A stretch of 64,000 bases of DNA from an uncultured Ignavibacteriota bacterium (GCA_903900335.1 CAIUMP010000021.1:62001-126000); one strand, 5' to 3'. Positions 1,694 through 37,668 are shown, counted from the first letter of the stretch. Notes: generated by a model not told the origin, from the letters alone. Translations and numbers: made by a program.

Positions 1694-3292
1694 GTGCAAG
1701 TGAAATCCCACGAATTCCAAACCACTGCTTATCTTTTCGAAGCTCCCTGGCACTTCGCCTTTGCGATAACGGGTGCCTTAATGCTTCTTGCGACGCTGTT
1801 CTATCCGTTCGGCTATGATCAAGCAGTCTTCAGCGTCGGAGGCGAGATGATCATCAAGCACCTCGCTATCCCATACCGTGATTTCGTTGATACGAAGCCA
1901 CCGGTGATCTTTTACCTTTACGCGACTGCACTGTGGCTCTTCGGGCATCACGAATGGTCGATCCGCATATTCGATCTCTTGTTTCAGCTGCTCTCCTCTT
2001 TCTACTTCTACCGAATTCTCCGACGCGCGATCGATGGGAAGTTTGCGCTTGCCACAGTTTCGATTGTAGCGATGATCTATGCAGGCTCAGGCTTCTGGCA
2101 CACGGCGCAGGCCGAGAGTTTCGCTTATTTGCCTTCGCTCTTGCTGCTGGACATGGCCCTGCTCGTTCAGTTGAAACCGAGTAGGGCGTTCTGGTGGGGA
2201 TCTATCGCGGGTGGTGCAGCGATTATCTTGTTCCTATTGAAGTTCACACTTGTGCTCGGGGCGGCGGCGACAGCAGTCTTCTTGCTTTTTGAGCGGGACC
2301 GCAAGATTGGGGAAGCATTAAGGTTCATTGCCGGGATGGTCGCTTCCTTTCTGGCGCTTGCAGTTGTCATTGGGTTTGCTTTACAGAGAGCTGGGGCGCT
2401 CGCTCCGTTTTTTGAAGCGATGCGCTGGACGGTACAGTACGCGTCCATCACGTCTGTCACAACGGGAGCGTCGCTTGTCCAGCAGGTACTCCTTCTGTTT
2501 CCGGAGAGGTTCATGTATTGCACATCACCAACAGTCCTCTTGCTTGGGGTCTGGGGAATCTGGAACTGGATCATCGGAGGTCGTGCTGGTGAAGCACATC
2601 CGATACTCAAGTTGCTTGCTGTGACACTTCTCTTTCAGCTCACGGGAATTGTGCTAGAGCGGAAGATCGTGTTCGATTATCAGTATGCCAGGGCCTTGTG
2701 GGCCTTTGTCCCGTTTGCAATATTAGGCGGACTGGAACTGGCACGACAGATCAAAGGAAGGGGGCCTCACAAATGGATAGTCGGAGTTCTGGTTCTGGTG
2801 GCTATTGCAGCTTCGCCAATGGTCAGAATGTATACACAATCTCTTGCGTGGGCGAAGGTAGCATCTACTCACCAGGATGCCGGGCTCGAAGTACACAAAA
2901 GGATCGGAGATTACTTTGCGGATGAGCAGCGCGCAGTTGGGGAGTATCTTCAGTTACACATGTTCGATACCGAAAGGCTGTTCTTCTGGGGCAACGATGT
3001 CGGTGTGTATTGGTACGCTCGGAAGCTTCCCCCAACAATCTGCCTCACGGCAACGCCGCTCCGAACAGCCTTCACCCCGCGAGAATGGCGGGGCAGAATG
3101 ATGCGCCAACTCATAGAAGCGAATCCAAAGTACGTAGTCGTAGAATTTGGTGACGCGAAGGAGTATATCACGGGCAGCAAAGCAGATTCATATCAATCTC
3201 TGCAGCAATGGAGTGCTCTTGCCACGTACGTGGAAGCAGGATATGCCCGAGACACAGTAATAGGGCATTATCTAATGTATCGACGCCGGTAA
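1694..3292 (+). CDS. GT39/ArnT-like membrane glycosyltransferase
   Basis: A polytopic membrane protein of 532 residues starting at GTG 1694. It has the layout of GT-C fold glycosyltransferases (PMT/ArnT/GT39 type): a first transmembrane segment, then a periplasmic loop with FGYDQAVFSVGGEM and RDFVDTKPPVIFY, whose acidic residues and KPP motif are typical of the active-site loop. About ten further hydrophobic segments follow, then a soluble C-terminal domain of ~130 residues. Such enzymes transfer a sugar from a polyprenyl-phosphate donor to lipid or protein on the periplasmic side; donor and acceptor cannot be read from sequence. It stands alone, with no polysaccharide cluster around it, and converges on ddl with 15 bases between the stops. 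Confidence 0.75.
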   Translation: MQVKSHEFQTTAYLFEAPWHFAFAITGALMLLATLFYPFGYDQAVFSVGGEMIIKHLAIPYRDFVDTKPPVIFYLYATALWLFGHHEWSIRIFDLLFQLLSSFYFYRILRRAIDGKFALATVSIVAMIYAGSGFWHTAQAESFAYLPSLLLLDMALLVQLKPSRAFWWGSIAGGAAIILFLLKFTLVLGAAATAVFLLFERDRKIGEALRFIAGMVASFLALAVVIGFALQRAGALAPFFEAMRWTVQYASITSVTTGASLVQQVLLLFPERFMYCTSPTVLLLGVWGIWNWIIGGRAGEAHPILKLLAVTLLFQLTGIVLERKIVFDYQYARALWAFVPFAILGGLELARQIKGRGPHKWIVGVLVLVAIAASPMVRMYTQSLAWAKVASTHQDAGLEVHKRIGDYFADEQRAVGEYLQLHMFDTERLFFWGNDVGVYWYARKLPPTICLTATPLRTAFTPREWRGRMMRQLIEANPKYVVVEFGDAKEYITGSKADSYQSLQQWSALATYVEAGYARDTVIGHYLMYRRR

Positions 3293-3307
3293 GACGGCAC
3301 CATTTCC

Positions 3308-4330
3308 TTACGCTGCCGTCCTCAAAATCTTTTCGCACAGATCCTCGAATGACATCCCCGCGGCCTTCGCCGCATCCGGCACAAGGCTCGTCGAAGTCAT
3401 GCCCGGGAGAGTGTTGATCTCTAAGCAGAAGAATTTACCGTCCGGGCGAAGGCGATAGTCAATACGAGCGCATCCACGGCAACCAACAACGTGAAATGCC
3501 CGCAGCGCGTCAGCTTGGATGGCTGCTGTGAGTTCGCTCGGGAGGTCGGCTGGACAGGCGTGGAAGCTCATTCCCGTGGTGTACTTGTGGAAGTAATCGT
3601 AGAATCCACCGTTGGTCGTGATTTCAACGATTGGTAACACTTCGCCATCGAGCACAGCAACCGTCAGTTCGCGGCCAGCTATGAACTCTTCGATGAGTGC
3701 TTTCGGAGAATAGAGCAGCGCGAGATCAATCGCCTTGTTGAAGGCATCCTCGGCAGGGTCGTGAAGAATGGTAAGTCCAACCGTCGAGCCCTGATCGTTC
3801 GGCTTCACCACCATCGGGAATCCAAACTCGGCCTTTGTTAACTCATACGCCGCGTGGCGATCCTGCTGGTTTGTATCAAGCGCGACAATTGCTCCCCGTG
3901 GGACAGCAATGCCAGCATCTTTCAGTATGATCTTCGTGTAATGTTTGTCAATACAGATAGCGCTTGTTCTCGAATCTGAACCCGTGTAAGGTTTGCCCAG
4001 AAGTTCGAGCACGGATTGAATGATACCATCCTCACCCGGCACGCCGTGGAGCCCGAGCACGATGGCATCCGACTCCGCAATGGTGCTCGACATCAGGCTT
4101 TCGAGCACAATATTGCCCTGCGAGAAATTGCCGACCTGTTCGCTGGTTGGTGGCTCTGTGCTCGGGGGATCAGCCTGAAAGTCCTCAAGGCGCATAGCGC
4201 GGCCCGTTGCGGGGTCAAGCAGTGTTACGTCGTGACCGTTGCTCACGAGAGCGCGGGCCATTGCGGAACCGGAGATCAATGATACTTCACGTTCGGCGCT
4301 GGGGCCGCCTAGTAATACGCACAATTTCAT
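3308..4330 (-). CDS. ddl: D-alanine--D-alanine ligase
   Basis: A 340-residue ATP-grasp enzyme joining two D-alanines for peptidoglycan precursor synthesis in the cytoplasm. The N-terminus carries the LLGGPSAEREVSL signature and HGVPGEDG follows near residue 95. The ATP-grasp core includes MVVKPNDQGSTVG, the EEFIAGRELTVAVL strand and the metal-binding LEINTLPGMT near the end. It is somewhat longer than E. coli DdlB (306), mostly through a loop at residues 48-80. The ATG lies three bases after the leuS stop, so leuS and ddl are very likely one transcript. Confidence 0.95.
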   Translation of the reverse strand: MKLCVLLGGPSAEREVSLISGSAMARALVSNGHDVTLLDPATGRAMRLEDFQADPPSTEPPTSEQVGNFSQGNIVLESLMSSTIAESDAIVLGLHGVPGEDGIIQSVLELLGKPYTGSDSRTSAICIDKHYTKIILKDAGIAVPRGAIVALDTNQQDRHAAYELTKAEFGFPMVVKPNDQGSTVGLTILHDPAEDAFNKAIDLALLYSPKALIEEFIAGRELTVAVLDGEVLPIVEITTNGGFYDYFHKYTTGMSFHACPADLPSELTAAIQADALRAFHVVGCRGCARIDYRLRPDGKFFCLEINTLPGMTSTSLVPDAAKAAGMSFEDLCEKILRTAA

Positions 4331-4333
4331 AGA

Positions 4334-6949
4334 CTATCCGACTACAATATTTACCAACTTATCTGGCACTACAATAACCTTCTTTATCTCCTTGCCATCC
4401 GTATGCCTTATCACACTAGCACTGGCGCGCGCGAATTGCTCTAGATCTTCGCGGGAAAGTCCGCGTGGTACTTCGAGCTTATCGCGCAGCTTGCCGTTAA
4501 CTTGCAGGATAAGAGTGACCACGTCGTCCACAGTCTTCGCTTCATCGAAGGACGGCCACTTCGCATTGAAGATGGAGTCTTCGTGTCCCAGTCGTTGCCA
4601 CAATTCCTCTGTAATGTGCGGAGCAAAGGGTGAAAGCATCTTGAGCAGAGCCTCAAAAACGTAGATGGGAATCCCTGCTTTCTCGTCGGCGATCGCGTTC
4701 ATCAGGATCATGAGCGCGCTGATCGCTGTGTTGAGGCGCAATGCGTCAATGTCTTCGGTAACCTTCTTGATGGCCTGATGGAGCGCACGTTCAAGCGCTG
4801 GCGATGCAGAGGCATTTGCCAAACGAGAGAGATCCGTGACCCCTTCTTCTGTTGCTGCCAATCGCCACACGCGATTGAGAAATCGGTGTACGCCGTTGAT
4901 ACCTTGCGAGTCCCACGGTTTGGTACCTTCGAGCGGCCCTAAGAAGAGAATGTACGTGCGAACCGTGTCTGCGCCGTACCTTGATAGGAATTCGTCTGGG
5001 TTGACGATGTTGCCAAGCGACTTCGACATCTTCACTCCATTCTCACCCAAGATCATCCCCTGATGGAATGCGCGGACGAATGGCTCACGTGTAGAGACAA
5101 CGCCGAGATCGAATAAGAACTGATGCCAGAAGCGAGCGTACAGCCAATGGGTGACAGCGTGTTCCGAACCGCCGATATAGAGATCGACGGGCATCCAGTA
5201 CTGCTCATCTGCTTTTGATACGGCCTCGTGGTCGTTGTGGGGATCGAGATAGCGCAAATAATACCAGGACGATCCCGCCCATTGTGGCATCGTATTCGTT
5301 TCGCGGCGCGCGGGATGGCCTGTGGTTGGGTCAGTAGTGTTGACCCATTCCGATATGGTTGCGAGTGGTGACTCACCGGTGCCGGAAGGTGAATAGCTCT
5401 CGACCTGAGGCAACATTACAGGCAGCAATTTCTCCGGTAATGCCTTCGCATAATCACCGTCGCCATCATTGACAAAAATGATCGGGAAGGGCTCACCCCA
5501 ATAGCGTTGGCGCGAAAAGAGCCAGTCGCGGAGCTTGTACTTGATCGAGCGATTGCCTAATCCAGTCGCTTCCAGCCACTCGATCATCTTAGATTTGGCT
5601 TGCGTGGTAGGCATATCCGAAAAGAAGCCTGAGTTCACGGCGACCCCGTGTTCGGTAAAGGGCCGTATCAGCGGTTCGTTTGCATCCACGCCGGGTGCCT
5701 GAACCACTCGAATGATTGGTAATCCAAAGGCCTGCGCAAATTCAAAGTCGCGTTCGTCGTGACCGGGCACAGACATGATCGCTCCGGTGCCGTAGGTCAT
5801 GAGCACATAGTCGGCGATCCAGATCGGTATCGGCTGACTGGTTGCTGGATTGATCGCATATGCACCAGTAAAAACGCCGGTCTTCGCACGAGATAGGTCG
5901 ACTCGCTCGATGTCGCTCTTCCGGCGCACGTCGTCAACGTATTGCTCGACGCTTGATTGCTTGTCCTGAGTTGTAATTCTCGCCACGAGCGGATGCTCTG
6001 GAGCTAGGACCATGTACGTTGCACCGAAGAGGGTGTCCGGGCGAGTAGTGAATACGCGAATGTTCTCCCCATGACCTGCGATAGCAAAATCTATCTCCGC
6101 ACCCTCGCTGCGGCCAATCCAGTTACGCTGCATTTCGATCGTGCTTTCGGGCCAGTCAAGCTGATCCATCCCTTGCAGCAAACGTTCGGCGTAGGTTGTG
6201 ATCCGCAGCATCCACTGCCGCATGTTGCGGCGAACAACGGTGAAGCCCTTCTCTTCCTGCTCCGGGACTTCCTCGTTTGCCAGCACCGTGCCAAGCTCCG
6301 GGCACCAGTTTACAGGCGCTTCAGCGATATATGCTAAGCGGCAATTCGCCAGAAAATCCGCGCGTTGCTTGTTCGAGGCGTGGTGCCACTCTTCAGCGCT
6401 GTAGTGGCGAGGTTTGCCAGCGGTTGCGCATGGCAGACCTTGCGTGCCGTGGGACTCAATGAGACGGACAAGCCCGTCAATCGGCTTCGCCTTCTGCTCA
6501 GCGGTGTCGAAATAAGAGCCGTAGAACTGCAGGAAGATCCACTGTGTCCACTTAAAGTAGCTCGGATCGGTGGTATTGATCTCGCGGCTCCAATCGTACC
6601 CATATCCAAGCGCTTCAAGCTGCCGCTTGAAGTTCGCGATATTCTGAGCGGTGGTGATGCTCGGGTGCAGTTTGTTCTTGACGGCATACTGCTCGGCGGG
6701 CAGACCGAAGGCGTCCCAGCCGGTGGTGCGGAGTGTGTTGAAGCCCTGCATACGCTTGAAGCGCATCGTTACGTCCGTAGCGGTGTAGCTCAGTGGATGC
6801 CCGATGTGCAGTCCCGCGCCCGAGGGATACGGGAACATCTCCATCACGAAATACTTCGGCTTGGATGGATCGCGTTGAACACGGTATAACTCGCTGGCGC
6901 GCCAGGCGTCCTGCCATTTGAGTTCGATTTCGGAAAAGGGGTATGGCAA
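4334..6949 (-). CDS. leuS: Leucyl-tRNA synthetase
   Basis: A class Ia aminoacyl-tRNA synthetase of 871 residues, close to the usual bacterial length. Visible are FPYPSGAGLHIGHP with the HIGH motif near residue 48, a long CP1 editing domain (VFTTRPDTLFGATYMVL, and YGTGAIMSVPGHDERD with the conserved editing Asp), the catalytic core GSEHAVTHWLYARFWH, KMSKSLGN, and a C-terminal anticodon-binding domain. The start is a TTG: MPYPFSEIELKWQ aligns with the usual LeuS N-terminus and no ATG lies near. A tRNA-Leu(GAG) gene is 4.2 kb away. First gene of the leuS-ddl unit. Confidence 0.97.
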   Translation of the reverse strand: MPYPFSEIELKWQDAWRASELYRVQRDPSKPKYFVMEMFPYPSGAGLHIGHPLSYTATDVTMRFKRMQGFNTLRTTGWDAFGLPAEQYAVKNKLHPSITTAQNIANFKRQLEALGYGYDWSREINTTDPSYFKWTQWIFLQFYGSYFDTAEQKAKPIDGLVRLIESHGTQGLPCATAGKPRHYSAEEWHHASNKQRADFLANCRLAYIAEAPVNWCPELGTVLANEEVPEQEEKGFTVVRRNMRQWMLRITTYAERLLQGMDQLDWPESTIEMQRNWIGRSEGAEIDFAIAGHGENIRVFTTRPDTLFGATYMVLAPEHPLVARITTQDKQSSVEQYVDDVRRKSDIERVDLSRAKTGVFTGAYAINPATSQPIPIWIADYVLMTYGTGAIMSVPGHDERDFEFAQAFGLPIIRVVQAPGVDANEPLIRPFTEHGVAVNSGFFSDMPTTQAKSKMIEWLEATGLGNRSIKYKLRDWLFSRQRYWGEPFPIIFVNDGDGDYAKALPEKLLPVMLPQVESYSPSGTGESPLATISEWVNTTDPTTGHPARRETNTMPQWAGSSWYYLRYLDPHNDHEAVSKADEQYWMPVDLYIGGSEHAVTHWLYARFWHQFLFDLGVVSTREPFVRAFHQGMILGENGVKMSKSLGNIVNPDEFLSRYGADTVRTYILFLGPLEGTKPWDSQGINGVHRFLNRVWRLAATEEGVTDLSRLANASASPALERALHQAIKKVTEDIDALRLNTAISALMILMNAIADEKAGIPIYVFEALLKMLSPFAPHITEELWQRLGHEDSIFNAKWPSFDEAKTVDDVVTLILQVNGKLRDKLEVPRGLSREDLEQFARASASVIRHTDGKEIKKVIVVPDKLVNIVVG

Positions 6950-7100
6950 TGGAAGTTCGGTAATAATGAAATACTGCGAAAGAGCTATGCCGATTTACGC
7001 GGTTTAGTTTCTGTTCTCTTTAGGTCGGCGTTGGAATTGTCGTGATGCGATTCAAAAGCGGTATATTCGCACTCATTCTTTCACAGATGGAGGCCTCCTC

Positions 7101-8603
7101 ATGAGAATTCTCGTCATAGTCCTTCTGGCGGCACTTGTTTCGGTCGAAAGCAGTGCGCAACCCTTAGAACTTGTCCCAAGCACGCTCGTCGTCCCACAGA
7201 AATATCAGAAGTATTTCGACTCCACGCGCACGTTGAACCTGCCGCGAGGATTCACAATGTCGGTGTACGCGACTGGGTCATTCAGCGTCCCTCGATTTCT
7301 CGAGTTCAATCCTCAAGGAGTGCTCTGCATTGCTGACGACAGCTATAAGACGGTCATGGCCATGCCAGACAAGGATTCTGACGGTGTGGCCGACACCATC
7401 TACGAAATTGCAGCAGGAACAGAGGGCGCCCATGACATTGCATTTTATGGCGGTGGCATGCTTGCCGGCAGCCCGAATCATGTCTGGCAATACGATAACC
7501 CGTCAAGCACTGGTATTTACTCATCCAAGCATCTATTTATCGACTCCATCGGGGCTGCCCCGGAGGGGGTGCTTAATCACAACCTCCGAACGATGCTGAT
7601 AGATGAGGCGAGCAAATCGCTCTACATCGGCGTTGGAGCGCCGTGCAATGCCTGTCGAGAGAAGGATACCACACGGGCGACCATCCAGCGATATTCCCTG
7701 GAGGGACTGCCGCGAGAACTCTATGCTACGGGTATGCGGAATGCCACTGGTTTAGCAATGGATAGCTCGCATCAGCTGTGGGCGGCTGTTGCAGACCGCA
7801 ACGATCAGGGCCAAGATTTGCCGTCCGATTATGTAACACGAGTAACGAGAAGTGGCTTTTACGGCTGGCCTTTGGCCTTTGGCAACCAACAGTGGGTTGA
7901 TCTGAATGTTGACTCGGAGTACAAAGCCATGCTTCCCACGACGGCAGCAGATACCGCTCGCGTCGCCTCCACGCTTCCGCCGGACGTGCCCGTCGCCGCG
8001 CACTCCACGCCCTTGGGGCTTATCTACTGCAAGAATCCGAATCTTCCAGCATATATGGACAACACACTTCTCGTCTCGATTCACGGCTCCTATCCGGGAC
8101 CGACGGGTCGTTTCATTGCAAATGGTTCGAAGATCATGCTGATCAGCAACATCGGCGGCAAGTGGACCGCACAGGATTTTCTGACAGGGCTTCTCACAGA
8201 CTCTGTGAACTACGGACGCTGGGCCCGCCCCTGCGGACTCGTGATGGACCGCAAGGGGAATATCTACTTCTCATCCGATCATACTGCCCCCCACGTAACC
8301 CCGGCGGTGTATCGTATTAGTTTCGATCCAAAGAATGCGGTTGAACCTGCGCTGCCCTCCCCGGGACTCTTGGATATCACACAAGAAGCCGGTGGATGGA
8401 ATCTAACTGTTCATTCAACGGAACACGCCTCAATCTTATTGTATGATATGCTTGGCCGCCGAGTCGAAGCGCACGTGAGCGAGCGCAGCGTATCTGTGGA
8501 TGGGCGCTCGTTCTATTTGGATGCGACTGAGATGCAGCATGGCGTGTATTGGGTGGTGGTCCAGTGCGGTGGGGAGAGGGTTGCGAGGAGGATAGTGCAA
8601 TAG
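7101..8603 (+). CDS. Exported sorbosone-dehydrogenase-like beta-propeller with T9SS sorting domain
   Basis: A 500-residue protein with signal peptide (residues 1-19, ending SSAQ). The central ~380 residues resemble the glucose/sorbosone dehydrogenase family (PQQ-dependent six-bladed propeller): LPRGFTMSVYATG, the paired cysteines of GAPCNACREKD, YATGMRNATGLA, FYGWP, and YFSSDH near the end. The last ~75 residues have strand patterns (ILLYDMLGRRV, GVYWVVVQCGGERVARRIVQ) typical of a T9SS C-terminal domain, so the enzyme is probably surface-anchored or released. Whether it binds PQQ and what it oxidises cannot be told from sequence. GGAGG lies upstream of the ATG. Divergent from leuS. Confidence 0.8.
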   Translation: MRILVIVLLAALVSVESSAQPLELVPSTLVVPQKYQKYFDSTRTLNLPRGFTMSVYATGSFSVPRFLEFNPQGVLCIADDSYKTVMAMPDKDSDGVADTIYEIAAGTEGAHDIAFYGGGMLAGSPNHVWQYDNPSSTGIYSSKHLFIDSIGAAPEGVLNHNLRTMLIDEASKSLYIGVGAPCNACREKDTTRATIQRYSLEGLPRELYATGMRNATGLAMDSSHQLWAAVADRNDQGQDLPSDYVTRVTRSGFYGWPLAFGNQQWVDLNVDSEYKAMLPTTAADTARVASTLPPDVPVAAHSTPLGLIYCKNPNLPAYMDNTLLVSIHGSYPGPTGRFIANGSKIMLISNIGGKWTAQDFLTGLLTDSVNYGRWARPCGLVMDRKGNIYFSSDHTAPHVTPAVYRISFDPKNAVEPALPSPGLLDITQEAGGWNLTVHSTEHASILLYDMLGRRVEAHVSERSVSVDGRSFYLDATEMQHGVYWVVVQCGGERVARRIVQ

Positions 8604-26252: not shown

Positions 26253-26357
26253 GAGAGGGATTCGAGCGCTAATTCGCCTGAACAGACTTCCTCGCCCTGC
26301 GGTTATTGTAAATTGGCAGAAACCCGATCTCGCTTTTCCATATTTACTTGCACTACA

Positions 26358-28307
26358 ATGATCATCAGAGTTCGCCGCTTCTTGGGCTTTGCGGCTGTCT
26401 TCTTGCTTCACATCTCGCTTACGATTCCGTCTATCACTGTTGCTCAGCAACGCATTGCACATCCGATGCTCGGCGCGGCGGTTACACAGGCACACCGTGC
26501 TGCCTCTGCAAGTTCTGACGGAGCGCAAGGCAAAGAGAAGCTTTCGGGAGCCACCCCAGAGCAGACGCTGAGCGTCTATAGCCACGGCGACCCTACCGCA
26601 GAAGAGCAGTACATGCTTGAACTTGTCAACCGAGCACGCGCCAATCCACCGGCCGAAGGAGTGCTGATTGCGACAACTGCCGATGCGGATATCTCAGGGG
26701 AGTTCACCTATTGGGCAGGGCAGGATGCCAACGAACCGTCACGCTCGAAGATCCAGTCCGATTTTTCGAAATACCCTTCTCGTCCGCCGTTGGCATTTAA
26801 CTCGAGTTTACTTAAAGCAGCCCACAATCACAGTCAGGATATGCTCGCGAAGAATTACCAAGGCCATCAGGAGTCTGACGGTTCGTGGCCGTGGGATCGC
26901 GCAAAGACAGCAGGGTACGGCAGCACGTATGTAGGCGAAAACGCCTATTGCTATGGCAAGAGTATCTGGGAAATTGACGCGGGTTTCCTGATCGACTTTG
27001 GATCCCCCAACGACACGGTTCTCGGGCATCGGGAGAACGTCTTGAATTTTCAACCGAGCGGCTCTATGTATTCGGAGATAGGTTTGGGTATTATTCACGG
27101 AGGTACGGGACTTCCGAATGTTGGGCCGATCATCACGACGCAGGATTTCGGCGATAACGGCAAGACATTCGTACTTGGCGTGGTTTACGATGATCAGAAT
27201 CACAACGGATTCTACGATATCGGCGAGGGACTTGCTGGTGCAACGATTACCGTCTCTGGCGGGACGTATACGGCCGTGACGTCCACCTCGGGCGGGTATG
27301 CGGTACCATATAGCGGAAGTGGGACTATTACAGTTACGGCTTCTGGTGGTGGACTTGCGGCCCCAATTTCCCATCAGGTGCAATTCAACGGCGAAAATGT
27401 GAAAGTCGATTTTACGAAGGACTACGCAGGGCTTCCTGCCCAGGTCCAGCTTGTGCTCCCGATCGGGGACACCCTTGTCACAGTGGATACTGCACATTTT
27501 GTTTGGGGCGCCGTTACAGGTGCGACAAAGTACCGAATTCAACTTTCTACGGATTCGACACTTAAAGCGCCTATCCTGACCGATTCTTTGCTCACCACGC
27601 CAAAGAAGACTTTTGTTGGATTAAGGGATAGCGTAACATACTACTGGCGCGTGCAAGCCCTGAATGCAAAAGGATGGGGGCCATACTCTCCGATTGAGTC
27701 CTTCAGAGTCGGTCTAGTGCCAAACACCGTGGTGCTGGTTTCCCCAGCGGACGGAATCAATACCGGCTCAAGCGATGTGACTTTCACGTGGCAGAACCCC
27801 AATCCTTCCAACGTGACGGCATACTGGTTCGAGCTTTCAACTTCGTCCAAATTCTCGACATTGTATCGCAGTGATACACTCTACGACCCCACGATCCCAT
27901 CTGAGAAGATATCCGGTACAGATTTTCTTCCGGGAGTAACATATTACTGGCGCGTCTTTGCAGTGAACGATAACGGATGGAGCGCCTCGAGCGCAGTGCG
28001 GCATATTGTTGCTGGCTCATTGTCGGTGGCAGACAACTCGGCCTCTGTTCTATCCCCAGTTAGCGTCTCTCCAAACCCTACTACTGGAGAGACGAACATC
28101 CGTTTCTCGCTTGCGACTACTTCTGATATCTCGCTGAAGGTATTTAATGCGCTTGGTGAGGAGATCGAATCGATCGTTCTGGGTAAACTTTCACCCAGCG
28201 ATTATTGCATTCCATGGAATGCAAACAACCGGGCCGATGGTGCATACTTCTATCAGCTTCGAGTTGGGAAGCAGACACAGACCGGAAGGATAGTCGTTAT
28301 CCGATAG
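26358..28307 (+). CDS. Secreted CAP/SCP-domain protein with SdrD-like, Fn3 and T9SS domains
   Basis: 649 residues from ATG 26358; the longer TTG frame adds 15 residues before the signal peptide. Order: signal peptide (1-30); CAP/SCP domain at ~75-265 with AAHNHSQDM, GENAYCYG and the CAP motif GHRENVL; an SdrD B-like/Cna-type domain with a Ca-binding loop (DDQNHNGFYDIGEG) at ~275-350; two fibronectin-III-like domains (TYYWRVQALNAKGWGPYS and TYYWRVFAVNDNGWSASS); and a C-terminal sorting domain starting VSVSPNPTTGETNI and ending QTQTGRIVVIR. It is therefore a T9SS cargo displayed at the surface. The CAP domain function is unknown. Confidence 0.9.
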   Translation: MIIRVRRFLGFAAVFLLHISLTIPSITVAQQRIAHPMLGAAVTQAHRAASASSDGAQGKEKLSGATPEQTLSVYSHGDPTAEEQYMLELVNRARANPPAEGVLIATTADADISGEFTYWAGQDANEPSRSKIQSDFSKYPSRPPLAFNSSLLKAAHNHSQDMLAKNYQGHQESDGSWPWDRAKTAGYGSTYVGENAYCYGKSIWEIDAGFLIDFGSPNDTVLGHRENVLNFQPSGSMYSEIGLGIIHGGTGLPNVGPIITTQDFGDNGKTFVLGVVYDDQNHNGFYDIGEGLAGATITVSGGTYTAVTSTSGGYAVPYSGSGTITVTASGGGLAAPISHQVQFNGENVKVDFTKDYAGLPAQVQLVLPIGDTLVTVDTAHFVWGAVTGATKYRIQLSTDSTLKAPILTDSLLTTPKKTFVGLRDSVTYYWRVQALNAKGWGPYSPIESFRVGLVPNTVVLVSPADGINTGSSDVTFTWQNPNPSNVTAYWFELSTSSKFSTLYRSDTLYDPTIPSEKISGTDFLPGVTYYWRVFAVNDNGWSASSAVRHIVAGSLSVADNSASVLSPVSVSPNPTTGETNIRFSLATTSDISLKVFNALGEEIESIVLGKLSPSDYCIPWNANNRADGAYFYQLRVGKQTQTGRIVVIR

Positions 28308-28542: not shown

Positions 28543-28911
28543 TTAGCGTTTCACCTTGATCAGCGAATCAATGGTGGTGGTGTCGAGGACGCCGCCGCCC
28601 TTGCCGCCGTTCGGTCCGATATTGCTATCGCCTGGTGGCGTCGGAGGTGGTGGCGGCGGAGGAGGTGGTGGTGGATTCTTGATCGAGGAATCCTTCACCG
28701 GAGGAATTGGTGGCGTAGGAGGTACAGGTGGTTTCGGTGGTACTGGCTTTGGATTGACGACAGAGGTGTCCCTGCCCTTTTTCACGCCGCCGCCTTTGTT
28801 GCCGCCGCCGTTACCGCCGGTGCCCGGTCCGGTAGGATTGAAGCAACTCGCGACGCCGAAGCTTAAAAAAGCTGCGAACGATAAAACCGCAAGGTTCTTG
28901 ATGTTCTTCAT
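28543..28911 (-). CDS. Proline/glycine-rich lipoprotein
   Basis: 122 residues. The N-terminus (MKNIKNLAVLSFAAFLSFGVASC) is a type II signal peptide with Cys23 as the lipidation site. The rest is low complexity: GPGTGGNGGGNKGGG, then proline repeats (VPPKPPVPPTPPIPP) and a run of eleven consecutive prolines, then a Gly-rich end and LDTTTIDSLIKVKR. Such a chain would be an extended linker with no globular fold. The codons are ordinary for the window outside the repeat, so this looks like a real gene and not repeat noise. The antisense frames give Gly/Trp/Arg-rich shadows. Confidence 0.7.
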   Translation of the reverse strand: MKNIKNLAVLSFAAFLSFGVASCFNPTGPGTGGNGGGNKGGGVKKGRDTSVVNPKPVPPKPPVPPTPPIPPVKDSSIKNPPPPPPPPPPPTPPGDSNIGPNGGKGGGVLDTTTIDSLIKVKR

Positions 28912-29197
28912 ATGATGGTTTCAGTTAAGAAAATTCGTTTTGACCATAAATGCCCTCATGCGTCTCGAATTCAACGATTCGATCGAGACCGGAGAATCTG
29001 TCTGGTTGTATAACTCCGCGGAAGCAGGGCCGTCACAAACTAATTTGAAAAATCTTTCTTGCCACAGGAAAACAAGCTTGGTATTGCCATGATTCCGAGT
29101 TGGCCTGCGTTATGAGGACACCAAAATCGGGCCGCCTAAGTCACGGTCAGATTTTTTTCTGTTACAGATCCCCGAGTCAGGGGTTAGACCAATGAAT

Positions 29198-29202
29198 AGG
29201 AG
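29198..29202 (+). promoter_or_regulatory. Shine-Dalgarno site favouring a GTG start for the sigma factor
   Basis: AGGAG lies seven bases before an in-frame GTG at 29210, but inside the frame of the earlier ATG at 29192. A small CCCC/GGGG hairpin precedes it at 29170-29183. Confidence 0.6.
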
Positions 29203-29209
29203 AGCAAAC

Positions 29210-29983
29210 GTGGGCGAGTTGGCATTTACGGTGGATGGCAGCATGTCACGGGCTCTATCAGAGACGCACGAAGTGAGCGAGGCAATGACCGCGCCGGCTT
29301 TGAGCGAGGACGATAGCAGCGCGGTGATGTCGGCTATGCGAAAACCGCAATTCGCCGGAACGCGCACTTTCGCTGAAGACAAGAAGCTCAAGACGGAGCT
29401 CGCAGCACTCGAAGATGCAGAATTGCTTCGGCTTTTCCAGGAAGGGATCGAACCAGCGTTCTACGTTATCTTCGAGCGGCGTCACAAGGAGATCTTCACG
29501 CATTGCTATCGCATGTGCAATGGCGATACCGAAAAAGCAAACGATGCTTTCCAGGACACCTTCGTGAAAGTATTCACCCGTAAGGATCTCTTCACGGACG
29601 CGACGAACGGCAGAGCTTGGCTCTATCGCATAGCAACGAACACGTGCCTCAACGCACATCGCTACGATAAGCGGCATCCGCGCGAGGAGCTTGACGACAC
29701 CATGCGCGCCAGCGACCCGCAACTCATGCCCGATTTCGGGACGGAGCAGGATTCGCTCCGAAGCGCAATTGAACGGGCCGTCGGCAAGCTGCCCATGGAA
29801 CTACGTGAACCGTTCATGCTCCGCGAGCTGGATGAGTTCAGCTACGAAGAGGTCGCGGAACAATTGAACATATCTGTTGCCGCATGCAGGCAGCGGGTGT
29901 ATCGAGCGAAGCAGATCCTTCGCGAAGAACTTGAGGAGATGGTGACCGGCGAGGCACCGAAGAAGAAAAAGAGGAAGTGGTAA
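29210..29983 (+). CDS. ECF-type RNA polymerase sigma factor
   Basis: 257 residues from GTG 29210 (ATG 29192 is possible). An N-terminal extension of ~65 residues with no recognised fold precedes sigma region 2 at ~78-150 (FERRHKEIFTHCYRMC, ANDAFQDTFVKVF, AWLYRIATNTCLNAHR) and region 4 at ~182-242 (LPMELREPFMLRELDEFSYEEVAEQLNISVAACRQRVYRAKQ split over the helix-turn-helix). The C-terminus is Lys-rich (APKKKKRKW). Its TAA stop overlaps the ATG of the next gene as TAATG. This is the classic sigma/anti-sigma order, so the next gene is very likely its inhibitor. Confidence 0.92.
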   Translation: MGELAFTVDGSMSRALSETHEVSEAMTAPALSEDDSSAVMSAMRKPQFAGTRTFAEDKKLKTELAALEDAELLRLFQEGIEPAFYVIFERRHKEIFTHCYRMCNGDTEKANDAFQDTFVKVFTRKDLFTDATNGRAWLYRIATNTCLNAHRYDKRHPREELDDTMRASDPQLMPDFGTEQDSLRSAIERAVGKLPMELREPFMLRELDEFSYEEVAEQLNISVAACRQRVYRAKQILREELEEMVTGEAPKKKKRKW

Positions 29984-31629
29984 TGCAACAGCACGAAAAA
30001 GATAAATTAGAAGAGCGAATCGTAGCCTACTTCGAGGGCGAGCTTGACCCGAATGCGGGCAAGCAGCTTCTTGCGGACGTTGCGAAGAACACGGAGTCGC
30101 GCGCGCTCTTCAAGAGCCACGAGTCGCTGAACGCACTCATCAACGCCGCACGCGTCCCGATGGAAGTGCCGCTCGAGGCCAAGCGTTCTATCGCCGAGCG
30201 CATTCCCGGCCTCATCGCATTCATCCCCGGATTACTCGGTGGCGCACAAGCTATACCCGTTCTCACTCAATCAGGTAATTCCCTCTTCGGATTCCTCGCG
30301 AAGATTCCGCTTTCGACTGCTATCTCCGTCGGTACTTCAGTTGCCGTGCTCACGACCGCAGGTGTCATCGTCAAGAATAAAATGGATGCGAACGCCGACG
30401 CCGAGCGTAAGGCGAAGGTCGTTCTCATGCAGAATCAATCCAAGGTATCCGACGGCACTCAGTATTCCATCGCCCCACTTCCCACAAAGGACGTCGCCGT
30501 GCCGAATATTGGTAATGCAAGCGCGACAGTTGTTGGAGGAGAAGGTTCAGGCGTATCCAATAATGCTTCTCCCAACGCGTCTTCGACTAATACTTCCTCG
30601 GCTAATACTCCCCCGGCCTCTGGCTTCACACCAGCCGTTCCTTCGCAGGCGGAGCGGACTCACCTGCCGATCGCACCCAAGACGCTTGCCGCGGTTGTGG
30701 CCGGTACGGAACATGTCGCCTCTGCCCACGCCGCCAAGGGTGTTGATGGGATGAATAACTCTGGAAGGTCCGAAAAGCCAAAGGCGATTGACAGATCTGC
30801 CAATGCCTCTATCGCGGACAAATCCATCGCCGATAACGAGAGAAGCAAGGACTTTGACCAATCCGAGAACCAAAGCAAAAACTTTGGTATAGCTGCCACT
30901 ACGCCTACCACGCCTGCAAGCGATGCGCCGCCTCAAATCAGCACAGTCGGAGTGTCTCAGTCATCTGTGGCTCCGGCGAATAACGCCCTCCCACGAACTT
31001 CCGTCTTGTCACCGCTGCCCATTAGCTTTGGCGATGGACTCGTCGTTCGACCGTTCGGTTCTATCGGAACGAGAATTTCGTTCTTCAATGTGAAGGGTGA
31101 ATCGAGTGCTGACAAGTATCGTAGTGGTACCGCTGCCCCAGTGATGAACATCCTTGCAGGGTTGGACTTTCTTCTGGACGAAGTTTGGTCGCTGCGCATC
31201 CAAGGTGGACAGAGCGCCTTTGCTCACGAGGTACGCCGAAGTGATGTTCAACTTACTGGTCTACTGCCAAGCTACGTCCAGTATTCGACTGTCGAGAGTG
31301 ATGCTGCCTTTTGGTCAACGGCTGGAGTGAACTACCAGTTTAGTTTGACCGACGCGGTACCTGTCACGCTCAGTGCAGGTGTTGGCGCGGCATGGTTGCA
31401 TCCGATCGCCTTCATGGCGGACTTTGGTGTGACTGCCGAGATGCCGGTATCCTCGGGTCTCGCACTTCGTCCGGGTGTCACATTCGACCTTTTGAAGACC
31501 GGCATTGATGCGCTCCGTGATGGCCAAACTCAGCCCGGTTCTGCTATCATCGTAAATCGCGAGCTATCGGGTAACGGATTCTGGAGCACTTCGGTGGGCA
31601 TTAATATAGGCTTCATCGCACGATTCTAA
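29983..31629 (+). CDS. Anti-sigma-like protein fused to a C-terminal beta-barrel-like domain
   Basis: 548 residues. Residues 1-60 (EERIVAYFEGELDPNAGKQLLADVAKN split) look like the cytoplasmic helical domain of anti-sigma factors, without the HxxxCxxC zinc motif. A membrane helix follows at ~108-131 (STAISVGTSVAVLTTAGVIV). Residues ~150-345 are a Ser/Asn/Ala/Pro-rich linker, and ~348-548 is a run of amphipathic beta-strands ending in a terminal Phe (GINIGFIARF), as in outer-membrane beta-barrel proteins. It starts by TAATG overlap with the sigma gene and ends by TAATG overlap with the lipoprotein gene. It could join inner and outer membranes in one chain; that topology is inference. Confidence 0.75.
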   Translation: MQQHEKDKLEERIVAYFEGELDPNAGKQLLADVAKNTESRALFKSHESLNALINAARVPMEVPLEAKRSIAERIPGLIAFIPGLLGGAQAIPVLTQSGNSLFGFLAKIPLSTAISVGTSVAVLTTAGVIVKNKMDANADAERKAKVVLMQNQSKVSDGTQYSIAPLPTKDVAVPNIGNASATVVGGEGSGVSNNASPNASSTNTSSANTPPASGFTPAVPSQAERTHLPIAPKTLAAVVAGTEHVASAHAAKGVDGMNNSGRSEKPKAIDRSANASIADKSIADNERSKDFDQSENQSKNFGIAATTPTTPASDAPPQISTVGVSQSSVAPANNALPRTSVLSPLPISFGDGLVVRPFGSIGTRISFFNVKGESSADKYRSGTAAPVMNILAGLDFLLDEVWSLRIQGGQSAFAHEVRRSDVQLTGLLPSYVQYSTVESDAAFWSTAGVNYQFSLTDAVPVTLSAGVGAAWLHPIAFMADFGVTAEMPVSSGLALRPGVTFDLLKTGIDALRDGQTQPGSAIIVNRELSGNGFWSTSVGINIGFIARF

Positions 31630-33203
31630 TGCGTATTTTTCTTTTCATATTTCTTGTCGGTCTTTCAGTTGCGGGATGCACAACACTTACCGCTCCTGAT
31701 CCTGATTCGCCGAATACATTCAGTCTGACGGCCTACTTCTGGCCCTCGCAAGATACGGTTTTGTCGTATCAAACGGATAGTGGCAATCACTCGATCTCCT
31801 TGAATTCGACCGGAACTACGGCTACCGATCTGGGGCCGAGTTCTCCCGAAGCGGCATCATTGACTATACAGAAGTCCGGCTCTACAATTTCGTTGGGAGG
31901 ACTGACCGCGGCTGACATATTTGGCATTGATCCGGAGATCCAGATCGTGGGCCAAACCACGCCGATAACTTCAAGCCAATCCATCTCAATTCAATCGATT
32001 GCTAGCGTTGGCCCAAATCTCTATCTTGCGTCGAGCACAAAGCTGTACCGGAATCTTCCCGGCCAGCAGCCACAGGATTTGGGTCCGCTGCCTGCGCCAG
32101 GTGTTCAGTTGCGTGCAGGGCTAGACGGTGAAATGTTGTATGCGGTTGAATTTGGTGGAGACAGGGTCTTCTTTGCCACGGTCAAATCCAACCCGTCTAC
32201 AATTAATTGGAGTACCGTTGTTGGCAATGGTGGAAGTATTACTGCATTTGCACCCCTGGATGATCGCAGCGGTGGATCAGGACAAAATATTTTCCTGACT
32301 GCAACGGGTGGCCAACTGTACCAAGGTACCGACGATCATGGCAATGCAACCGCCTCGCCATTCGGACCGATGCTTTCCGGGACCGTCACAGCTATCGAAT
32401 GGGAACAGGGGTTTGGTCCGCCGACAGCCCTTGCTGGAATGCAGGACGGAAGGCTCTTCCAAGTGGGTGCCGGACGAAAGCCGATCGACTCGGTGACTGT
32501 AATAAACTTCGGCTCCAGAATCACCGCTATCTCTCAAGGATTCGTTGGTACTCAGCAGGGGCTGTACGCCTTCGATGGCTTTAGTTTATGGGGGCAGATC
32601 AATACGAATCCCGTTCTCACACTGCTCAATGCAGGTAGCAACGCGGTGTTTGCAAGTCTAAGCACAGGGCAGGTGATCGGCGTCTCTAATCGAGGCCTAA
32701 ATATCGTACCATTCGGGTATCCGAATGGTACAAGCGGTGCAACCGCCTTTGGAGTTACCCTAACGCAATCAGGCGGCAGCCGAGTGGCCACACTCTTCGC
32801 TTTGGCCGGGGCGAGCCTCTTTCAACACGATGCAAATGTTCCTTCTACAGCTTGGACACCGATCAACTCCGTGACCACAGGCAGTACTCAGTGGCCGGCC
32901 GGAACATTCACGATACTCGCTAATGGGGCCTCCTCATGGCAGGTTGGGTATGCATTGCGGACGGATCTAGGCACGTCTCGTGTTTACACGTACAATGCCT
33001 CAGTCACCGGACAACATGCAATGGTTCTTGATAATGTTGGTTACTCCGACGTAATCATTGTTACATATTTGGCTTCACTTGCCGGGGTCGCGGATACTAC
33101 AGTGATGCCAAAGTTCGTGATCTATTTCCAGAAGGGGCTTGGCCCAATTCGAATCGAGCGTACCGAAAATCTTTGGACCGAGATCGTCCGACTAGTGAAA
33201 TAG
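31629..33203 (+). CDS. Lipoprotein with beta-propeller-like repeats, third gene of the sigma operon
   Basis: 524 residues. The signal peptide has lipobox SVAGC (Cys17). The rest is beta-rich with loose repeats of ~45 residues (NLYLASSTKLYRNLPGQQ, GEMLYAVEFGGDRVF, NIFLTATGGQLYQG, GLYAFDGFSLWGQ, AVFASLSTGQVIG), suggesting a propeller. No known family is recognised. Its ATG overlaps the previous stop (TAATG), so it is translationally coupled to the anti-sigma fusion and is probably part of the same sensing unit. A 17-bp-stem terminator follows. Confidence 0.7.
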   Translation: MRIFLFIFLVGLSVAGCTTLTAPDPDSPNTFSLTAYFWPSQDTVLSYQTDSGNHSISLNSTGTTATDLGPSSPEAASLTIQKSGSTISLGGLTAADIFGIDPEIQIVGQTTPITSSQSISIQSIASVGPNLYLASSTKLYRNLPGQQPQDLGPLPAPGVQLRAGLDGEMLYAVEFGGDRVFFATVKSNPSTINWSTVVGNGGSITAFAPLDDRSGGSGQNIFLTATGGQLYQGTDDHGNATASPFGPMLSGTVTAIEWEQGFGPPTALAGMQDGRLFQVGAGRKPIDSVTVINFGSRITAISQGFVGTQQGLYAFDGFSLWGQINTNPVLTLLNAGSNAVFASLSTGQVIGVSNRGLNIVPFGYPNGTSGATAFGVTLTQSGGSRVATLFALAGASLFQHDANVPSTAWTPINSVTTGSTQWPAGTFTILANGASSWQVGYALRTDLGTSRVYTYNASVTGQHAMVLDNVGYSDVIIVTYLASLAGVADTTVMPKFVIYFQKGLGPIRIERTENLWTEIVRLVK

Positions 33204-33245
33204 ACTCTCCAGACCATCTCTCGGAATTGCCGGGACGAAACGCTC

Positions 33246-33300
33246 CGCGCGAATGTTTATGGCGGCTCAAATCCATAGACATTCGCGCGTCACGTTTTTT
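33246..33300 (+). terminator. Very strong Rho-independent terminator of the sigma operon
   Basis: Arms 33246-33262 and 33273-33289 pair over 17 positions with a single G-U wobble around a 10-base loop, and six T residues follow at 33295-33300. It separates the sigma operon from the aminotransferase gene 15 bases further on. Confidence 0.92.
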
Positions 33301-34521: not shown

Positions 34522-37500
34522 ATGAGCTTTGATACATCATCGCGTCTCACTCGCGGCGGGCAATTCGTTGTTTCCGCCGCGTTCTTATTCATGTTGCAAC
34601 TTGCGGCATTCTTCTCTCCTGCGAAAGCGGGCTACTGGCAGCAGCATGTCAGCTACGAGATCAGTGCAACGCTCATTGACTCCATTCACACGCTCGACGG
34701 ATCCCTTACGGTAGCGTATGGAAATAACTCGCCGGACACGCTTAAGGAAATCTATTTCCACCTCTACTCAAATGCCTTCCAGCCTGGGAGCATGATGGAT
34801 GAGCGCGCGCGGCAGCTACACAGCAATCCCGTGCAAGACCGGATCAGTAAGCTACCGGAATCGGAGCGCGGGGTGTACGTGATCCGTGGGGTATCGTCGG
34901 AGGGTACAGCGGCGGATTTCGAAGTCACTGGCACCATCATGCGAGTGAGCCTGCCCAAGCCTTTGCCACCCGGCGGCTCCATCCGAATCATGATACCTTT
35001 TCGGGAACAGATACCGCGACAAACACGGAGGAGCGGTTGGATGTCGCATGAAGGGGTAGAGTATTCCATGTCGCAGTGGTATCCGAAGGTTGCGGAGTAT
35101 GATCAGGAAGGTTGGCATCGACAGGAATATGTATCACATGAGTTTTATGGGGTGTGGGGTGATTTTACCGTCGATCTCACACTGCCATCTCGTTTTACCG
35201 TCGGTGCGACCGGGGAGTGCATGAACCCATTGCAAGTTGGGCATGGCTATGACCGCATTGCAAAAGGGGAGAAAGAGGGACTTGTCCGAGCAGGTGAGGA
35301 AGGCGAGTCGAAGCAAACAATCTGGCGATTTCATGCATCGAATGTCCATGATTTCGCGTGGGTCGCGGACGATGATTACATTCACGAGTGGACAACGTGG
35401 CAGGATACGATCACGCTTCACGCATTTTACAAGAGCAGATTTGCGCCCTTCTGGATCAAGTCAGCGCTTGAATATACTAAGCGGTCGCTTGCAATTTATA
35501 GCGAGGTATTTGGGCCCTATGCCTACCGTAATTTTTCGACAACGATGGCAGGCGATGGCGGAATGGAGTACCCGCAGCTTATCATGATCACGGGATATCG
35601 TCCGTCCGTGCTCTCAATGGCAGGGGTGATAGCCCACGAAGTTGGACATCAATGGTTCTATGGAATGCTCGGCTCAAACGAAACGCGCGAGGCATTTATG
35701 GATGAGGGCTTCACGAGCTATGCGACGACGCTTGCCATGAATCGGATGTTCGGAGATCATCAGGTTGTCCCCGGGGCCGAGCATTCATGGCTTGATTGGT
35801 TCATCCCTCAGTTCAGTAATAAGCGCGATAACTATCGCGGCTATCAGCAGATCGCTTCACAACAATACGAAGAGCCTCTGGACATTCCGCATGATTGGCT
35901 CAGGGAGGATGCAACAGGTGGACAAGTTTATGGCAAGACGCAGGCTGTGCTAACCATGCTGGAGTACGCACTTGGCAACGACGTCTTTGCTAAAGGGATG
36001 AAGGAGTACTACGCTACATGGCATTTTAAACACCCCCATCTCGTCGATTTCAAAAAAGTGATGGAGCGGGTGGCGCACACGGACCTCGATTGGTTTTTCG
36101 ACGAGTGGTTTCGTAGCACACGCAGTCTGGATTACGAGGCAAAGGATGTGACCTCGATTTCTTCCGGGGCTGCATTCGAAACAACGATCAGGCTCCGCAA
36201 CAACGCTCTGGGTGTAATGCCGCTGGATCTGCTGTTGCACTATGACGACGGCACGGAGTCTTCTGCTCTGATTCCACTCGCGACAAATAAGGATCTTACC
36301 TATAACAAACCAGGTGTCAATCTGTATTTTCCAGGATGGGACTGGGTGAGTCCGGATTACGCCGGAATGGTGAGGACTCCGAAGCGAGTTTCCTGGTTCG
36401 AGATCGACACATCCTGGCGGTTGCAGGATCTGAACTGGTCGAATAATTTCAGTGCGCGGAGCGGTCTTTGGTCCCCCCCTGGTGAGTGGGCGGTATGGAA
36501 GCAGCTGTTTGCTAATCCACCGCTTGATGAGTATTATTCCGTCCTTCGACCGATTATCTGGTATGAGGAATCATCCAGGATTGACGCAGGTATCGGCATG
36601 AAGTTCGGCATGAACAACAGTTACTCTGGCGATGTGAAGCTGCTCTACAAAGTCGATCCCTCACATGATGTGGGTGTCATGGATTGGTCCGACCATGTGG
36701 AAGGAAAGTTGTACTATTCATCCCCTGTCGATTGGATTGGAAGACTTGGCTCGATAGCCTTCGATGCGGAGAAAATGTATGGAATTGGTACGCTGAGGGC
36801 AGCCCTAGCGAAAGTTTTCCGTCCGACATACTGGAGACTTGGTAGTGATCATAGCGCTCAGCTCTATATTGAAAGCCAGAAGTTACTCGACCCCAGTTAT
36901 TCTTCCTTTCATTCTGGGTGGTCCGCGGGTACCGTACAGGTCGGTGGATTGCAATACTCAATCGCAGGGGAAACACCTAGCGAGGGATTAAAACTGCTTG
37001 GAGAGACGAGCCTCTGGAGTTCAGATGCGAAGTTTGCACGGATGAAGGCCGAGTATATCACAAACTTTGGCACATTGCGGGGGGCTGATTCCCGCTTGCG
37101 GATCGCGGCCGGAAGTGCGACAAATGGAACGCCGGTCGAGCGACAGTTCTATGTCGATCGCGCAAACAATTACGAGGAGCAGTCGAGTGGATTGTTCCGT
37201 GCAGTCAGCGGAATTGATCGCACAATCGGTGACAAGTCTGGAATGCTTGTGGAAGGCGGCGCGGGAGCGCGAGGGTACGCCCGCGGCGACAGCGGAGTTA
37301 ACAATAGCGCTCTCGTAGGTACGCAGATGCTCGGGATAAGCTATGACATTGGGCTGCCGAATCCTCTCGCATCGTTGGGTCATTTTCCTTCTACATTCGG
37401 GTTTGGATTGTTTGCTGACGCAGGCTGGGTGGGTACAGACGTGTCAGATTTTTGGAGCGACTTTCGTTCAAATCTGAGGACCGATGCAGGGCTCAAGATC

Positions 37501-37668
37501 GGCATTAATGTGCTTTCCTGGCTTCCAGCGCAGCTGCGCGGAGTTGCGGAGGAGTACGCATCAATACCAACAGTAAATGTATTTCTTCCTTTGTATGAAA
37601 ATCATCCGCTTGATGGAAAAAAGCCGATTGATTTTCGTTGGACTGTTTCGCTCGGTGCTAAATTCTAA
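34522..37668 (+). CDS. M1 family metallopeptidase fused to a C-terminal outer-membrane barrel-like domain
   Basis: 1048 residues. AAGGA lies upstream of the ATG. The signal peptide region (VVSAAFLFMLQLAAFF) ends near residue 36. The M1 domain has GGMEY at 346-350, HEVGH at 372-376 and the third zinc ligand Glu395 in DEGFTSYA; GGMEY in place of GAMEN is common in this branch. After ~600 the chain changes to ~450 residues of amphipathic strands with GFGLFADAGWVG and a final FRWTVSLGAKF, as in surface-antigen/Omp85-like barrels. The peptidase would thus be carried by its own barrel. Ends with a 4-base convergent overlap with the S41 gene. Confidence 0.85.
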   Translation: MSFDTSSRLTRGGQFVVSAAFLFMLQLAAFFSPAKAGYWQQHVSYEISATLIDSIHTLDGSLTVAYGNNSPDTLKEIYFHLYSNAFQPGSMMDERARQLHSNPVQDRISKLPESERGVYVIRGVSSEGTAADFEVTGTIMRVSLPKPLPPGGSIRIMIPFREQIPRQTRRSGWMSHEGVEYSMSQWYPKVAEYDQEGWHRQEYVSHEFYGVWGDFTVDLTLPSRFTVGATGECMNPLQVGHGYDRIAKGEKEGLVRAGEEGESKQTIWRFHASNVHDFAWVADDDYIHEWTTWQDTITLHAFYKSRFAPFWIKSALEYTKRSLAIYSEVFGPYAYRNFSTTMAGDGGMEYPQLIMITGYRPSVLSMAGVIAHEVGHQWFYGMLGSNETREAFMDEGFTSYATTLAMNRMFGDHQVVPGAEHSWLDWFIPQFSNKRDNYRGYQQIASQQYEEPLDIPHDWLREDATGGQVYGKTQAVLTMLEYALGNDVFAKGMKEYYATWHFKHPHLVDFKKVMERVAHTDLDWFFDEWFRSTRSLDYEAKDVTSISSGAAFETTIRLRNNALGVMPLDLLLHYDDGTESSALIPLATNKDLTYNKPGVNLYFPGWDWVSPDYAGMVRTPKRVSWFEIDTSWRLQDLNWSNNFSARSGLWSPPGEWAVWKQLFANPPLDEYYSVLRPIIWYEESSRIDAGIGMKFGMNNSYSGDVKLLYKVDPSHDVGVMDWSDHVEGKLYYSSPVDWIGRLGSIAFDAEKMYGIGTLRAALAKVFRPTYWRLGSDHSAQLYIESQKLLDPSYSSFHSGWSAGTVQVGGLQYSIAGETPSEGLKLLGETSLWSSDAKFARMKAEYITNFGTLRGADSRLRIAAGSATNGTPVERQFYVDRANNYEEQSSGLFRAVSGIDRTIGDKSGMLVEGGAGARGYARGDSGVNNSALVGTQMLGISYDIGLPNPLASLGHFPSTFGFGLFADAGWVGTDVSDFWSDFRSNLRTDAGLKIGINVLSWLPAQLRGVAEEYASIPTVNVFLPLYENHPLDGKKPIDFRWTVSLGAKF

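Follow-up and report, generated by a model that had tools for sequence, protein, structure and literature searches.

The window, a stretch of 64,000 nucleotides from the genome of an uncultured Ignavibacteriota bacterium (GCA_903900335.1, CAIUMP010000021.1:62001-126000; 4.0 Mb in 62 contigs, completeness 100), harbors an operon of three genes on its forward strand, closed by an intrinsic terminator and flanked upstream by a small divergent gene. The features of the locus, numbered from the first letter of the window, are the following:

28543-28911, minus strand: gene for a small Pro/Gly-rich lipoprotein of 122 residues with the lipobox FGVASC (ORF), a predicted second target of the sigma factor (regulation inferred)
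29010-29037, minus strand: predicted ECF-type promoter toward the divergent gene (sequence motif), with -35 TGTGAC at 29037-29032, N16 and -10 AGTTAT at 29015-29010
29160-29187, plus strand: predicted autoregulatory ECF-type promoter (sequence motif), with -35 TGTTAC at 29160-29165, N16 and -10 GGTTAG at 29182-29187
29192-29983, plus strand: ECF sigma factor gene, 263 residues (ORF; Pfam/NCBIfam family matches)
29983-31629, plus strand: gene of the middle protein, 548 residues from ATG 29983 (ORF; predicted structure)
29983-30201, plus strand: residues 1-73 of the middle protein, helical anti-sigma domain, zf-HC2/RseA-like, without cysteines (structure prediction; family profile matches)
30208-30264, plus strand: residues 76-94, a further hydrophobic segment, pronounced in the window's orthologue group alone (hydropathy 1.73)
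30316-30372, plus strand: residues 112-130, most likely inner-membrane helix (hydropathy 1.79; within a predicted helix)
30439-31029, plus strand: residues 153-349, disordered tether rich in Ser, Ala, Pro, Thr and Asn (pLDDT about 30; composition)
31042-31626, plus strand: residues 354-548, predicted 8-stranded barrel ending in GFIARF (structure prediction; fold comparison)
31629-33203, plus strand: lipoprotein gene, 524 residues (ORF; lipobox; fold comparison)
33246-33299, plus strand: intrinsic terminator with a 17-bp stem, a 10-base loop and T6 (folding against shuffles)

The sequence TAATG occurs at the sigma/middle and the middle/lipoprotein junctions alike, so that at each of them the stop and start codons have one base in common. 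The arms of the terminator stem (33246-33262 and 33273-33289) enclose the loop and precede the T6 run, and the folding energy is -32.2 kcal/mol as compared to -14.7 for shuffles (z -6.35). The three coupled genes and the terminator, both proposed in an earlier note on this DNA, are found at the coordinates given there. The sigma factor matches the Pfam models of region 2 (1.2e-10) and region 4 (1.9e-15), and its start at ATG 29192 is likely correct, as its N-terminal residues recur among orthologues.

The middle protein was modelled with AlphaFold2 on an alignment of 28 sequences. Helices extend across residues 3-73, with a pLDDT >90 for residues 1-50. By itself, the window protein matched no Pfam or NCBIfam family, and the sequence of its N-terminal domain alone passes no anti-sigma model. 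Sequence search returned no solved relative with a meaningful E-value, and a solved anti-sigma fold is absent among the matches listed for the whole model, barrel matches having filled the list. The evidence for the anti-sigma-like N-terminus claimed earlier is found at the family level: NCBIfam PRK13920 (“putative anti-sigmaE”) matches the N-terminal domains of 15 of the 28 family members (best 3.9e-7) and zf-HC2 those of 18 (best 1.6e-5), with weaker matches of NF052375 in five, RsrA in four, ChrR in one and RseA_N in one. None of the 28 members has a cysteine among its 90 N-terminal residues, which makes the domain a zinc-less version. At the family level, these profiles identify it as a zinc-less classical anti-sigma domain of the zf-HC2/RseA type.

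A predicted helix at residues 110-152 covers the hydrophobic segment 112-130. The single membrane helix of the earlier note is supported as regards this segment, while its uniqueness is weakened by segment 76-94, which is nearly as hydrophobic. In the window's orthologue group, positive charges follow segment 112-130 instead of preceding it, against the positive-inside rule. Paralogues exhibit a single clear hydrophobic segment with mostly the expected charges; the extra segment and the reversed charges are mostly absent from them. With two membrane crossings, the barrel would end up on the side of the cytoplasm, and a barrel reaching the outer membrane requires one crossing of the inner membrane. 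The protein likely possesses one membrane helix, the crossing segment being 76-94 or 112-130.

The following 200 residues or so are disordered, as described earlier; the “Ser/Asn” label given to this linker was approximate, because Ala, Pro and Thr are also abundant (Ser/Ala/Pro/Thr/Asn at 15/15/10/8/8 %). Beyond residue 350, the model exhibits eight main strands between residues 354 and 546, with a pLDDT mostly of 80-97. Comparison with solved structures places this domain close to a designed transmembrane barrel (Z 18.0, rmsd 1.8, 116 residues aligned) and to NspA (Z 17.8, rmsd 2.5, 141 aligned), followed by OmpA (Z about 17) and by OprF and OmpW (about 16.4). Weak OMP_b-brl and PagL family matches are found in relatives. 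The chain terminates with GFIARF, in agreement with the strand-rich end and terminal Phe noticed earlier; the C-termini of the family (GLRYRI, GLQYRF and similar) resemble the insertion signal expected of a barrel, and are thus beta-signal-like. The C-terminal domain is predicted to be an 8-stranded barrel of the outer-membrane type. A soluble C-terminal domain was considered and is disfavored by the confident model and the outer-membrane barrel matches. To judge from the model, one chain very probably assembles an anti-sigma domain, a membrane segment, a tether and a barrel.

The third protein possesses the lipobox LSVAGC and matched no Pfam or NCBIfam family. Its AlphaFold2 model, built with 18 relatives (mean pLDDT 81.8), contains a WD40-like propeller at residues 115-419 followed by a conserved C-terminal beta domain. 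WD40 propellers and YncE match at Z 24-26 over 257-305 residues, the values being 26.5 for Utp4 and 24 for E. coli YncE. Lipobox and fold together bear out the propeller lipoprotein proposed before.

The genes for the middle protein, the lipoprotein, an aminotransferase and an M1 peptidase follow each other in this order in all seven genomes of the genus. The sigma gene precedes the middle gene in six of them; in the seventh (locus L032), the contig starts at the middle gene. Paralogous modules are found in the same genomes and in the family; most of these loci have the three genes side by side, and the third protein mostly bears a lipobox. The window's genome contains five modules, at the window locus and on contigs 15, 8, 44 and 37, the third gene on contig 37 being without a lipobox. 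At the level of the class, relatives of the middle protein were detected in 82 of 294 sampled genomes. Most of those inspected are 360-550 residues long and display a “YLDGxL” start, a membrane segment and a barrel-like end, and a sigma-like gene often precedes them. Five named relatives from a profile scan with a 7-row alignment belong to metagenome-assembled genomes, labelled Candidatus Kapaibacterium, Ignavibacteriae bacterium palsa_1295 and Bacteroidetes bacterium; Kapaibacterium is classed under Bacteroidota at NCBI. The search for the same domain order in related genomes thus found it kept across the genus and in the paralogues.

No homologue split into two genes was found among the genus copies and the inspected class relatives. 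A frameshift or gene-fusion artefact is rejected because all genus copies and most class copies are single stop-free frames. A soluble domain, separate genes and a frameshift, each of which the earlier note had named as speaking against its proposal, were all looked for, and none occurred. Shorter relatives of 153-262 residues (L103, L106, L109, L114, L120) keep the N-terminal part and the membrane helix without the barrel, a distribution consistent with gain or loss of a barrel on an ordinary anti-sigma factor.

Several neighboring genes deserve mention. The conserved neighbor at 34522-37668 encodes a protein with an M1 peptidase domain at residues 363-529; some 500 residues come after it, up to a terminal WTVSLGAKF, and the protein could be, from its sequence, a second domain-barrel join. 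At 26352-28304, a CAP-domain protein with fn3 domains carries a Por_Secre_tail, which points to type IX secretion in the host organism. The genome also encodes Omp85 proteins and M50 (site-2 type) proteases. To note, another of its five modules, with genes for sigma factor, anti-sigma factor with barrel, and lipoprotein (L174, G000:C44:86500-96000, positions 1905-7582), is located directly downstream of an Omp85/BamA-like gene, a placement that would suit a system surveying outer-membrane assembly; L051, the related locus of another genome, is without such a neighbor.

Distances between sigma factors correlate with those between N-terminal domains, with a Mantel r of 0.88 over 26 loci and an r of 0.75 over 16 within-genome paralogue pairs. 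For the latter, species descent alone is no explanation on these sequence distances, and both values are consistent with each anti-sigma factor serving the neighboring sigma factor. Barrel and lipoprotein distances correlate as well (r 0.79, 16 loci), as do those of the lipoprotein with the sigma factor and the N-terminal domain (0.83 and 0.85). As the lipoprotein correlates with all parts (0.79-0.85), the test singles out no barrel contact, and the analysis revealed no direct link of the barrel to the lipoprotein.

The motif TGTWAC-N16-KGTTW has a single match in the window, directly before ATG 29192, for 0.09 expected. G002, G003 and G004 carry the forward promoter at the corresponding position, and G006 has it with a single difference. 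In its exact form, TGTTAC-N16-GGTTA has one genome-wide occurrence, at this operon, a count that alone is not above chance; the promoter is called from its position and conservation and not from the genome-wide count. The divergent site is matched in six of six readable orthologous upstream regions, and the divergent lipoprotein gene has counterparts in L031, L033, L035 and G004. From this conserved divergent pair we infer that the sigma factor controls its own operon together with the divergent lipoprotein gene; autoregulation is probable on this evidence.

The paralogous modules display a related signal. TGTAAC is present upstream of the sigma genes in 17 of 28 modules, versus 1.35 in shuffles, and many of these sites continue as N16-TGTTT. 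Across seven genomes, TGTAACT-N15-TGTTTT yields 14 matches (L156-L169), versus 1 for the reversed control, and five of the 14 lie directly before sigma genes of the window-type family. By its motif, the promoter of the window's group is a variant of the TGTAAC type of the paralogues, and the TGTAACT-N15-TGTTTT sites delineate a candidate regulon for the sigma factors of the paralogous modules. Most of the other sites precede genes for secreted or lipid-anchored proteins, Kelch-like proteins and lipoproteins among them. In the window and at paralogous loci alike, only some 4-12 bases separate the predicted -10 element from the start codon of the sigma gene; this short distance suggests a leaderless or near-leaderless transcript for the sigma operon.

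Signaling from an outer-membrane barrel to an ECF sigma factor via an inner-membrane anti-sigma factor is the principle of the FecI/FecR/FecA system. There, FecA is a separate TonB-dependent transducer, whereas the barrel of the window protein belongs to the same chain as the anti-sigma domain and has eight predicted strands. Class I anti-sigma factors (zf-HC2), represented by RseA, ChrR and RsrA, have models that match the N-terminal domain of the window family; the zinc type of this class possesses Cys/His zinc ligands, whereas the window family has no cysteines and carries a C-terminal barrel in addition. The EcfO/Reo pair of Bacteroides fragilis was reportedly the subject of a 2013 study in J Bacteriol. 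The earlier note had set the window protein apart from known systems as a single chain where others use separate proteins. This contrast does not hold, as single chains had already been published for Reo (2022) and Dma1-3 (2024-2026).

Dma proteins comprise an N-terminal anti-sigma domain, a transmembrane helix, a long disordered tether and a C-terminal barrel, and their genes adjoin those of ECF21 sigma factors (PMC13088901). Dma1, Dma2 and Dma3 of Bacteroides thetaiotaomicron are presented as single spanning chains in PMC13088901, which cites PNAS 2024 (10.1073/pnas.2321910121). The dma2 gene belongs to a three-gene operon, and loss of Dma2 raises das2 and bt_1555-1557 (PMC13088901). Reo of Phocaeicola vulgatus is likewise described as a large anti-sigma factor reaching from the cytoplasm to the cell surface and ending in an outer-membrane barrel; it has been connected with envelope stress, and EcfO/Reo and NigD lipoproteins are induced by envelope toxins (PMC9308784, PMC13114119).

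The window protein, by prediction, exhibits the same domain plan as Dma and also directly follows an ECF sigma gene. For comparison, two dma2-type operons (L124, L125) were recovered through DUF4943, with the gene order as published: sigma, Dma2, DUF4943 and two further genes. The DUF4943 protein starts lipoprotein-like in these orthologues, whereas the third gene of the window lineage encodes a WD40-like propeller lipoprotein. The N-terminal domain of Dma is built on a short W-containing motif and matches no anti-sigma model, in contrast to that of the window family. Aligned by hhalign with 12 Bacteroidia Dma-type sequences, including the two dma2-operon orthologues, the window-type N-termini reach a probability of 0.9 %, versus 99.6 % in a sensitivity control within the window-type set. 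The barrel reaches 26 % with the Dma2-type barrel, over 28 columns only, and the sigma factor and a das2-type sigma are 30 % identical across 162 columns, a value that is not diagnostic of the ECF21 class. Because the N-terminal domains do not align, membership of the Dma sequence family is unsupported. With Reo, whose regulon includes surface lipoproteins, the window protein shares the spanning plan and the C-terminal barrel; the lipoproteins of Reo are NigD proteins and its inducers toxins and oxygen, whereas neither NigD (NigD_N) nor DUF4943 has a match in the window's genome. In another member of the Bacteroidota, a 547-residue protein (L146, 1495-3138, minus strand) combines a sigma-like start with a Dma2-barrel-like end, and resembles the described Dma3 arrangement. 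The spanning plan is thus already known from gut Bacteroidales, and what differs here is the anti-sigma module, the conserved propeller lipoprotein and the predicted promoter pair.

The reading we favor, at a probability of roughly 0.6, is a single-chain trans-envelope sigma switch of the Dma/Reo kind, in a lineage of its own. At the inner membrane, which the chain would cross once, the N-terminal domain is predicted to hold the ECF sigma factor; the tether of about 200 residues would span the periplasm and the C-terminal barrel would be embedded in the outer membrane. An event affecting the barrel, be it failed or disturbed insertion, envelope damage, or contact gained or lost with the propeller lipoprotein, would be passed down the tether, most simply by cleavage of the anti-sigma factor, freeing the sigma factor. 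From promoters of the TGTTAC-N16-GGTTAG type, the freed factor would then transcribe both the operon that encodes it and the divergent gene of the Pro-rich lipoprotein. The outcome would be a small envelope response that amplifies itself and yields, among its products, two lipoproteins and the sensor of the system. In such a chain, the state of the outer membrane or of the lipoprotein may be reported directly to the sigma factor. Transmission by tether and proteolysis has about even odds, and a role of the lipoprotein as direct input is put forward tentatively.

Along the lines of FecA/FecR/FecI, the barrel could instead be a receptor for the lipoprotein while the latter binds an outside ligand, a glycan or a peptide, so that sensing would be specific rather than of general damage. 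A lipoprotein encoded as third gene in nearly all loci, and translationally coupled in the window, speaks for it, as do the correlated barrel and lipoprotein distances and the about five systems per genome, which would fit different ligands. However, the correlations of the lipoprotein with the sigma factor and the N-terminal domain are equally high and may reflect mere co-inheritance, the third gene is short (215-240 residues) in some paralogous loci, the propeller being predicted for the window protein, and deletion of the genes downstream of dma2 left the vesiculation phenotype unchanged (PMC13088901). We regard this reading as rather unlikely.

Less likely still is a cleavage of the tether, be it constitutive or stress-induced, by which the barrel, as a porin- or adhesin-like product, and an RseA-like anti-sigma half would go separate ways in the cell. 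Such cleavage would suit a long, disordered and poorly conserved tether, the existence of barrel-less relatives and the M50 proteases of the genome. It fits poorly with a one-frame fusion kept in all genus copies, in most class relatives and across paralogues of low identity, and with the same plan being described in Bacteroides as a single spanning chain (PMC13088901, PMC13114119). Finally, that the strand-rich end forms a soluble beta domain in the periplasm, or is kept in the cytoplasm by two membrane segments, the likeness to a barrel being a modelling artefact, is very improbable: the second hydrophobic segment and the reversed charges of the window's group would agree with it, but the high model confidence, the Z of 16-18 to many eight-stranded outer-membrane barrels such as NspA, OmpA and OmpW, the weak OMP_b-brl/PagL matches and the family-wide beta-signal-like C-termini argue against it.

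The trans-envelope switch that we favor bears on the history of these proteins. Anti-sigma factors spanning two membranes may have been assembled at least twice, with the W-motif in Bacteroidia and with a zinc-less classical domain in Kapabacteria and relatives, the second lineage having multiplied until a genome contained about five such systems in parallel, of which several possess a lipoprotein and a promoter type of their own; we hold this at slightly less than even odds. On the favored reading, single-chain two-membrane sigma switches would not be exclusive to gut Bacteroides but widespread in an environmental class of Bacteroidota, and the small predicted regulon together with the parallel copies in each genome would offer a compact test set for how such chains report on the outer membrane.
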